Source: Pontederia crassipes (Eukaryota > Streptophyta > Magnoliopsida > Commelinales > Pontederiaceae). Taken from it: a DNA stretch of 64,000 nt. How positions within the stretch are numbered: position 1 is the stretch's first letter; every line of letters begins with the position of its first letter. The stretch is taken from positions 55,499,995 to 55,563,994 of the forward strand of contig CM060198.1 in the NCBI GenBank assembly GCA_030549335.1, read 5' to 3'. Shown here one piece after another: positions 24,501-27,500 of the stretch. A program made the position numbers and the translations under genes. A model generated the notes under the pieces. That model was not told where the DNA came from. It did not search any database and saw only the letters and a program-made list of their open reading frames with translations.

Positions 24501-27500
24501 GAGAAGTATCGAAGTAGGAGAAGAGACTTACATATGGCTTTCATTGACTTAGAGAAGGCGTATGATCGGGTACCAAGGGATGTACTTTGGAAAGCCTTGC
24601 AAAAGAAGAGGGTGAGTGTTGCCTACATTAAGGTAATACAAGATATGTACGATGGGGCATTGACTAGGGTTAGGACACCCGGAGGTGAGACAAATGAATT
24701 TCCTATAGGAATTGGCCTACATCAAGGATCAGCTTTAAGCCCGTATCTATTTAACTTAGTTATCGATGCTATAACCGAGAGTATCACAGAGGAGGTACCT
24801 AAGTGCATGCTATTTGCGGATGATATAGTACTTTTAGCGGATTCAAGAGAAGAGATTAATACAAAATTGGAAATATGGAGAAATACGTTGGAGTCAAAGG
24901 GTTTTCGTTTAAGTAGGAATAAAACAGAATATATGCATAGCAATTTCACAAATAAACAACTTAGAGACGATTTGAAAGTTAGGTTAGGGGAGGATATAAT
25001 TCCTCAAGTGACAAAGTTTAAATATTTAGGATCAATTGTAAGACAAGATGGTGAGATTGATGACGATGTTAATCATAGAATTCAAGCTGGTTGGTGTAAG
25101 TGGAGGAAAGCCACTGGAGTTCTTTGTGATAGAAAAGTACCCAATAAAGTTAAAGGAAAATTCTATCGTACTGCTATAAGGCCAGCAGTGTTATATGGTA
25201 GTGAATGTTGGGCTATGAAGGGACAACATGAACGTAAAGTGGGGGTAGCCGAAATGAGGATGTTGAGATGGATGTGTGGTCATACAAGATTAGATAAGAT
25301 TAGGAATGACCATATACGTGAACGAGTCGGAGTGGCTCCTATTAGTGAGAAAATGGTAGAGAATCGTTTGAGATGGTTTGGTCATGTTCAGAGAAGACCA
25401 TTAGATGCGCCAGTAAGAAGAGTAGATCAAATAATCTGGAGTCCGATTAAAAGAGGGAGAGGGAGGCCAAGGCGGACACTTGGCGAACTAATAGAGCAAG
25501 ATCTATTGGTGAATAATATACCGAAATGTTTGGTTACTAATAGAGCGGAATGGCGTCGTATGATCCATGTAGCCGACCCCACCTAGTGGGATAAGGCTTT
25601 GTTGTTGTTGTTGTTGTTGTCTACAGGATGACCAAAAAGAAATCATGTAAATCAAATAAACTTCAAATGAAACTAAGTAGCCCTGATTTGTAATTGTCTT
25701 TAATATATAATATCATTCAGATGAATAACTCAGAAGTTTCTAATATAATTCCTCGTATATATATAATGGTCCAATTGTGTATGTTTTTTAGAACTTGAGA
25801 TACTTGTACAGGTGGCCCGGGAAGAAGCATGGGCCAAGGTCTCTGCATTAGAACTTGAGATAGCTGCAGCAATCCGTGATCTTTCAATGGAGAAGCAAAG
25901 ATTCCAAGGCGCTAGAGAAAGAATAATTCTCCGGTGAGCACTTAAATTATGTGAATTTAGTGATGGTGCTGTTTTTCCTTGGAGGGCGAACTTTTTTACT
26001 CCAAGCTGTGGGGAAAAGTGGAAGGTCCAAAATGTATCTGCATAGCCCAAAGAAATGAAGCAGATGTATGGACAACATACTTGTACAATTATCCGCGTCC
26101 AAGGTATATTTACCTAAGTATTGCCTCCCAGAAAAGATAGGTGATCCAGAAATAAACTGAGTGAAAAAAGATGTTTTATGAAGGATAAATGCAATTTTAA
26201 TAACATGAAATAAACTCCGCCTATGTTTTATAGCCGGTCCCAAGCCCGGATAAAGGAGGGTTGTGTTAGGCCCCGACAGCCAGCGTAAAACCCTGTCGAA
26301 TCTTATGAACATGGATCAACGAATATAGCAGAATGGCGTCGTATGATCCATGTAGCCGACCCCACCTAGTGGGATAAGGCTTTGTTGATGTTGTGTATGT
26401 TTTTTAGGACGCAATTAGCTAGTCCTGATAAAAGTTGCATTCTCAGACGTTGTACAACAGCTATTCCTGATACAGTTATATATATAGCCAGGTGACAACC
26501 ACAACTCCGGTGGTCATCCTTTTTCTCCTAAAAAGAGCAACCATTCCCGATACAAGTTGTTAAAAAAAAAGACAAATCATGAAGGAACAACGACTTCAGG
26601 TACCAAATTCCGACTGTTTTCCATAGAGGCACTTAAAATCACATAAAAGGCACATGCCTCTGACACCTCATAGAGGTCAATTCTTGTTTTTCTCTATTCA
26701 ATTGTCAATGTGGATTGGCTTCCAATCCTACATGTAGGAGTCTTATTGAGCTGCATCCATGAGTTCCGTGTCTTTTGTTTCACCTTTTTGCTTGACTACT
26801 GCTGATGACCCCTCACTAGTAACTTTCAACATCTTTATGCCGCTGTTGAACTCTTATCCAAACCCTTCTCAGTTTTACTTTTTACCTATTGTGGCTCCCT
26901 CCAACCTCTTGTTCGTTAGTACCATGTTAGCATGTATAAATGTACTTTTTCATTGTTGTAGTTTGCAAGTGTATCAATATGACACATAATGTGCCCTTCA
27001 TTGTTGTAGTTTGCAAGTGTATCACTGTGACAATGTGTCGTAGAGCACTTCACCTCATACCTCATCCTTAGTACTTTATTTTTTTGAGGAAAATAAAAAG
27101 GGGTGCAACACCCAGGAGTCTTGTGCGGCTGGCTTATTCAGGGGCTTTGCTGGGGATCTAGTCCCTCTCATCCAGTATGCCGACGACAAGGTATTTATCA
27201 TCAAGGGCTCCGACAAGGAGGCTAGGGGGGTGGCCATCCTTGTGGAGCTCTTCGGTGCGGCATCCGGCCTCAAGATTAACCATGCAAGTCATCCTCCATC
27301 TCTTTCGGCATGGTTGAGGAGGTCGCCACCCAAAGAGCAGCTGAGCTTCACACTCCGACTGGCACTCTTTCGATTACTTGGGGGTGAACCCCGGTTATTG
27401 ATCGATTGGAGCACGAACCTCCCGGGTGGAGCTCACGCTTGCTTCACGTGGAGGTTGGCTTATATTACTCATATCAATCCTTTTGGCGTTCTCGATCTAT

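Follow-up and report, generated by a model that had tools for sequence, protein, structure and literature searches.

The window, by which we mean the whole 64-kb stretch of DNA analysed here, raises the question of how a coding exon with its 5′ splice donor came to lie between two copies of a 17-bp direct repeat, together with a small RTE-tailed element. Our analysis leaves us highly confident that an RTE-clade LINE system produced the insert by 5′ transduction, from a host transcript that had been partly spliced, and that events of this kind are recurrent in this genome.

Results

Layout of the insert and its empty target site

A preliminary description of the window had reported a perfect 17-bp direct repeat around a coding exon with its 5′ splice donor, intron-like sequence and an RTE-tailed small element. 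All of these parts were confirmed. The repeat was recovered by a scan of the window at 25775-25791 and 26391-26407. Reading from 5′ to 3′, its two copies enclose first 20 nt of filler, then the 122-nt exon and the GT donor attached to it, and finally some 275 nt of intron that lead into the RTE-tailed element. The features, in window positions, are as follows.

25775-25791, + strand: 5′ copy of the 17-bp target-site duplication, TTGTGTATGTTTTTTAG; single and one base shorter at the empty paralogous sites (L026, L027)
25792-25811, + strand: 20-nt filler at the 5′ junction, with patches matching the exon and intron of the insert itself
25812-25933, + strand: coding exon of 122 nt (VAREEAW...ILR) from a gene for an FHA-domain/coiled-coil protein; the parent exon starts at C11:19200132
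25934-26208, + strand: first part of the following intron, kept together with its GT donor (GTGAGC)
26208-26267, + strand: match to the type-P1 twister ribozyme, RF03160 (49.0 bits; gathering score 67.2)
26213-26327, + strand: RTE 5′ head (AACTCCGCC...CAACGAATATA), the same as the 5′ end of longer RTE copies
26319-26394, + strand: RTE 3′ tail ending GCTTTGTTGATGTTG, with 94.7% identity to the 3′ end of the neighbouring RTE copy
26391-26407, + strand: 3′ copy of the target-site duplication; TTG is common to tail and repeat
24447-25618, + strand: separate RTE copy (RVT_1), apparently 5′-truncated and ending in (TTG)n, outside the insert and about 160 bp upstream

Additional to the earlier description are the patchwork of the filler, the ribozyme-like head, 10 further matches in the genome and the upstream splicing seen in sister copies. 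Three more matches to the RTE head/tail element, with 84-87% identity, lie in the window at 20674-20818, 41826-41935 and 62661-62814.

At a threshold of three mismatches the 64-kb window holds three sites resembling the repeat, against a chance expectation of 0.60; two of these are the pair itself, and the third has all three mismatches. The site was sought in its empty state for one of the nine copies described below, that in the window. Two paralogous regions of the same genome, L026 on C15 and L027 on C4, are 97% and 96% identical over the downstream flank of the insert and carry the site uninterrupted (GGTCCAATTGTGTAGTTTTTTAGGAGG). The repeat is single there and one base shorter (TTGTGTAGTTTTTTAG), and it is on these grounds that we regard the 17-bp repeat as a target-site duplication. 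The one-copy site that the preliminary description had proposed to look for thus exists.

These regions also dispose of the reading that a functional gene resides here, with the exon as part of it, and that the repeat arose by chance. The sequence before 25792, TTTTTTAG, does resemble a splice acceptor, but the parent gene lies elsewhere, and tblastn of the next exon and three upstream exons of the FHA gene against the 64-kb window found none of them, so the exon and its next exon are not continuous here. The sole match besides the exon itself was weak (33% over 27 residues, E = 0.025, at 3324-3404). With its empty sites in two places, a functional exon at the window locus is refuted, and we give this reading practically no probability.

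A parent gene on C11 and nine insertions

Searching the whole genome (1.13 Gb, 43 contigs; a plant, judging by its gene content) with 25812-26210 gave 11 matches, and a query with the intron alone led to the same 11 places. They comprise a parent locus (C11:19200132, + strand; L004/L012/L013), a paralog on C12 (L010/L085) and nine insertions, namely L001 in the window and L002, L003, L005, L006, L007, L008, L009 and L011. What had been described as a single event is therefore one of nine.

At the parent locus (C11:19.20 Mb) the exon and the intron run on past both ends of the captured stretch, and the neighbouring exons are present; inspection of splice sites and reading frame by eye puts the end of the previous exon at C11:19198205 and the start of the next one near 19201057. 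An internally deleted RTE element sits in the parent intron right after the captured exon, as a parent locus had been expected to show. The earlier guess that the exon came from an FHA-domain protein was right: PF00498 is found in the upstream reading frames of the parent with E = 2.1e-10, over two pieces that we joined. In the C12 paralog the same intron is without the element and reads AATAACATGATTTCGG, and the parent has ATGA on either side of the insertion. All nine copies have the same element at the same position and cross the junction between parent intron and element seamlessly. Within the retained intron the window copy and the parent differ at two sites, at both of which the derived base is that of the parent.

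On our own exon reading, the parent has an in-frame TAA at about C11:19197567 (L012), four exons upstream of the captured one, where the C12 paralog has AAA. The parent gene may therefore be a decaying duplicate.

Target-site duplications of 8-17 bp flank eight of the nine copies. For L011 no duplication was recognisable; our script gave just a 9-bp match 122 nt off, which we scored as none. Duplication of the copies at the DNA level was rejected on account of the flanks and duplications, which differ from copy to copy, and of the intron removal described next.

Splicing of the template RNA

Three copies begin in the upstream exon and are joined exactly across a 1,926-bp intron, with 22 nt of upstream exon in L007, 20 nt in L005 (an extra CAG included) and 8 nt in L003. 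L006 has a 7-nt match to the upstream exon that is ambiguous and, by eye, could equally be a fold-back of the flank. Exact intron removal is readable in these three of the nine copies, the other six, the window copy included, being uninformative or ambiguous. Of the two AGs in the tandem acceptor, TTAG/CAG/GTGG, L005 uses the first, from which comes the extra CAG at its join, and L003 and L007 the second. The two choices imply that at least two separately spliced RNAs were copied, unless one of them is mimicked by a deletion of 3 nt. The single intron that was retained is the one that holds the RTE tail, and its acceptor lies past the end of the copied RNA.

The insert had been described as a piece of unspliced host pre-mRNA. 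Because the upstream intron was precisely removed in the sister copies and the RTE-tail intron was kept, it is better called a partly spliced, intron-terminated transcript, although the window copy by itself cannot tell. The other part of that account, retrotransposition of a host transcript primed at an RTE-type tail and without poly(A), is supported by the parent, the empty site and the shared 3′ end. Processed pseudogenes are likewise of RNA origin and flanked by a target-site duplication, and they have lost their introns and end in a poly(A) tail. The insertions depart from this pattern in that poly(A) is absent in all nine copies, one intron (25934-26208) is kept and the 3′ end is set by the RTE tail.

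Three features identify the family as a 5′ transduction. Host sequence stands directly upstream of the element at the source locus (L004/L012/L013), host part and element lie inside one duplication in eight of the nine copies, and passage through RNA is recorded in the exact removal of the 1,926-bp intron from L003, L005 and L007.

The RTE tail and the ribozyme-like head

The 76-bp tail at 26319-26394 shares its 94.7% identity with the adjacent resident RTE copy, and all nine copies end in it, with terminal repeats of the type (TTGATG)/(TTG)n and not poly(A). An end common to the insert and a resident RTE, together with a repeat tail other than poly(A), points to dependence on the RTE clade. 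The seven RTE families of flowering plants listed in one account all end in (TTG)n or (TTGATG)n (PMC3747384). The tail is presumably the end that is recognised and primed. The resident RVT_1 copies would belong to the RTE clade, judging by their tail and their head.

The head with AACTCCGCC opens six of the 16 RTE loci compared (L068, L069, L073, L076, L078 and L081) and runs on into the RTE, the comparison of these six longer copies covering their 5′ ends. The other ten are in reverse orientation, truncated in the head, or headless. The 'small element' carries the 5′ end of the RTE itself.

This head resembles a type-P1 twister ribozyme. Twelve loci were searched with Rfam models. The window match reached 49.0 bits, that of the parent 62.8 and the best, in L069, 66.3; all 12 align over the whole model (positions 1-68), and all remain under the curated cut-off of 67.2. 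The window match is without 3 nt that the parent has. Helix P1, the outer one, is short throughout and only partly paired, which would be expected if one of its strands derives from the target site. Weak snoRNA and mir-7 matches came up alongside the twister in the same search. When one head RNA (L036) was folded and compared with shuffled sequences, z was -0.08; thermodynamics thus does not single the head out, and the predicted ribozyme rests on the sub-cut-off Rfam model. Truncated yet active twister ribozymes at RTE 5′ ends have been mentioned, by reference to work in preparation (PMC7761336).

We compared the window with 29 other headed loci: 40 of 761 candidates were scored, and the best 30 comprise these 29 and the window. 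The start of the head is taken by us to be the position of the ribozyme cut. A target duplication of at least 14 bp lies within 5 nt of the head start in 14 of the 29, and one of at least 15 bp lies far upstream of the head in two (L047 and L051). The script left the remaining 13 unassigned, and among these the duplication also abuts, or nearly abuts, by eye in L042 and L046. Heads therefore mostly start at the presumed cut, and upstream host sequence is the exception.

Most of these headed loci have the RTE head fused to a 5′-truncated RTE 3′ end. The fusion point within the 3′ part varies widely from locus to locus, and the fusions look like template jumps onto a discrete RNA end. In L036-L064 the 3′ edge of the head itself is nearly constant (CAACGA to CAACGAATATA), with L038 extending further, in a comparison whose query favoured heads at least this long. 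L040 consists of the head alone within an 18-bp duplication.

A second and a third source locus

L051 carries about 200 nt of host sequence whose pieces, when searched for, are found apart at some places and joined at others. Seven of these places were examined; further matches lie, for example, at C13:20624711, C13:20637356 and C17:12385872. At a source-like locus, L087, the pieces are split by a 90-bp GT-AG intron and an RTE element follows directly, with GGTGGTAAGAAGT on both sides. By eye, L087 is without 8 nt that the spliced copies have, and it may thus be related to the source rather than identical to it. The 90-bp intron is gone in all five copies tested (L051, L086, L088, L090 and L091); L089 is an unspliced relative, and L092 starts within the second exon. 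Target duplications measure 18 bp in L051, 15 bp in L086 (by eye) and 13 bp in L092, and none was found for L088 and L090 in the stretch examined. The host gene of this family has many diverged relatives. At least 12 matches to a 58-nt piece of its transcript, some 16-41 kb apart, lie in C25:335017-608614, which suggests a tandem array.

The third case is a single one: L047 carries 323 nt of the unspliced flank of L046 (99.6% over 499 nt) in a 15-bp duplication of its own. A second multi-copy, spliced family and this single case show that the process is recurrent.

L091 is of a different make. At the presumed twister cut its spliced host exons continue into an RTE of another and longer type, with one additional A at the join, and this RTE is identical to L068 at 262 of 270 bases over the part compared. 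L091 is therefore a candidate for a jump from RTE RNA onto a host cleavage product. The window family itself might be explained in a similar way, by reverse transcription that started on RTE RNA and jumped to an unrelated host RNA, from a parent gene that held no element. L091 and the varied head fusions speak for such jumps, which have been proposed for LINE enzymes in the rice blast fungus (PMC2104539), but in this family the parent carries that element at the corresponding place in the intron, and all nine copies pass the junction without a seam. We regard a jump as very improbable for the window family and reject it on account of the co-linear parent junction; in L091, as in the internally deleted elements, it is still a likely explanation.

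Fillers and the clustering of 5′ ends

The window filler is a patchwork taken from the insert itself. Its stretch TTAGAACTTGAGATA (25788-25802) repeats 15 nt of the exon (25848-25862), and ATACTTGTACA (25800-25810) repeats 11 nt of the intron (26077-26087); the patches overlap by TTAG, ATA and CA. The filler of L007 repeats its target flank (18 and 12 nt), and for the 8 nt of 5′ filler in L005 no source was found. L092, of the second family, has by eye a fold-back inverted repeat at its 5′ junction. Fillers of this kind would fit template switching during resolution of the 5′ end.

The nine 5′ ends differ, yet they span only about 65 nt around one exon junction. Upstream of that junction the joined exons extend for at least 615 nt, and about 1.3 kb by count of frames, and copies truncated within most of the intron would have been detected by the intron-only query. 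With 5′ ends drawn uniformly from -1275 to +400, none of 200,000 simulations had so small a span; with the range restricted to 460 nt the probability was still about 1e-6, real truncation not being necessarily uniform. Simple 5′ truncation does not predict so tight a cluster. RNA structure was rejected as its cause, since the exon junction did not stand out when the joined parent RNA was folded in sliding windows; a GGCCC/GGGCC stem lies just past the exon start, and other windows fold equally well or better.

The 5′ end of L005 lies exactly 17 nt upstream of the junction, and that of L007 15-22 nt upstream (its flank shares AAAAGAT, which makes the end ambiguous). In the second family, L086, L088 and L090 have the same 17-nt extension before a presumed junction whose upstream exon was not located in the genome. 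Exon junction complexes sit 20-24 nt upstream of junctions (PMC10226599). Tentatively, then, an RTE enzyme copying spliced, untranslated host RNA might be halted about 17 nt upstream of the junction by an exon junction complex, so that the 5′ ends would in part be toeprints, and might bridge the twister cut by using the host cleavage product as template; we consider this rather unlikely. The roadblock is an unproven proposal from few copies. It fits two of the nine in the window family (L005 and L007) and three of the six looked at in the second (L086, L088 and L090, with L051, L091 and L092 as misfits). Seven ends of the window family, from about 8 nt upstream to 40 nt inside the exon, are unexplained by a roadblock alone, and a defined 5′ end of the RNA is a plain rival, above all for the second family. 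If the toeprint reading were true, plant LINE insertions would keep a genomic record of RNP structure on host RNAs.

Age and relationships of the copies

Compared with the majority base, the nine copies show 12 differences in 3,485 aligned host bases, and they are therefore young. The element half shows 36 differences in 1,630 bases, of which 32 are C>T or G>A, compared with six of the 12 in the host part. Per base, the RTE half (window 26213-26393 and the same part of L002-L009 and L011) has about six times the substitutions of the host half. The element half may thus mutate as if methylated, with methylation stopping near the border between host and element.

The parent differs from most copies at five sites. 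Shared changes conflict among the copies: the parent goes with L007 and L008 at alignment column 410, with L006 at column 673, and with L002 and L006 at column 686. For this reason we claim no tree. A strict model of one unchanging parent allele fails as well, and segregating parent alleles, recurrent mutation or some copying of copies is needed.

Such conflicts bear on the possibility that a single founder retrocopy took the exon and that most of the nine are copies of copies, a SINE-like family in the manner of primate SVA_F1. A short founder copied nearly whole would be expected to give 5′ ends within some 65 nt, and several substitutions are common to copies and absent from the parent. However, a copy with the extra CAG and copies lacking it both exist, although loss of 3 nt could imitate one of these variants; the base at column 410 is common only to the parent, L007 and L008; the shared changes are mutually contradictory and consist mainly of C>T or G>A in the element half, so that they are probably recurrent; and, by eye, in the junctions examined no copy has the filler or flank of another. 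We judge a founder improbable, though it deserves more weight than a template jump, and prefer repeated transduction from the parent gene.

Discussion

The following course of events would account for repeated transduction. An internally deleted RTE of about 190 bp, with its own 5′ head and 3′ tail, landed in an intron of the FHA gene on C11. Transcripts of this gene, spliced at the upstream intron, would have ended at, or been used from, the RTE tail within the next intron, which for that reason could not be removed. RTE protein acting in trans would have recognised the (TTGATG)n tail and nicked the target, and reverse transcription would have run from the tail back through the intron and the exon and some way into the preceding exon, which had by then been spliced on. 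Resolution of the 5′ end would have followed, by microhomology or by patches from the flank or the insert itself. Such transduction took place many times; nine insertions were found, one of them in the window.

One plant genome thus has three source loci that are independent of one another. Two of these gave multi-copy, spliced families, and the record includes a parent, target duplications and, for the window copy, an empty site. Plants gain a route for moving gene pieces, an intact splice donor included, without poly(A). Since the ribozyme-like head of the RTE should remove upstream host RNA, transductions measure how often the cut fails or is bridged. A 2026 review describes 5′ transduction as unreported in plants (PMC13317346); among the titles and starts of abstracts listed by our literature searches there was no report of it, and the statement otherwise rests on what that review says of plants.

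The window case is known in kind from primate SVA (PMC6139936). As described there, hominid SVA_F1 (MAST2 exon) and pt_SVA_D6 (STK40 exon) likewise have a spliced host exon 5′ of a non-autonomous element moved by a LINE in trans. In those families a first exon is spliced to the element and the family itself was amplified, to 84 and 94 copies (PMC6139936), whereas here an internal exon and a retained intron come from the parent gene, the tail is of RTE type and not poly(A), and the host is a plant. In mammalian 5′ transduction, too, a transcript from an upstream promoter is described as reading into the element, both then moving together (PMC13317346); the present case differs in its RTE clade, its spliced upstream exon and a ribozyme-like 5′ head that should sever the upstream RNA. 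RTE-tailed SINE/LINE pairs such as the tobacco TS SINE likewise involve a non-autonomous RNA with an RTE 3′ end moved in trans, by the account given of them (PMC3747384), but the 5′ part here consists of the RTE's own 5′ end and host gene sequence. The twister ribozymes mentioned for RTE 5′ ends occupy the same position and have a presumed role in 5′-end processing (PMC7761336), whereas here upstream host RNA stayed attached, and cutting would have been escaped or bridged. Finally, the chimeric retrogenes of Magnaporthe, attributed to template jumping, join pieces of different RNAs as L091 does (PMC2104539), and the window family, in contrast, is co-linear with its parent locus.
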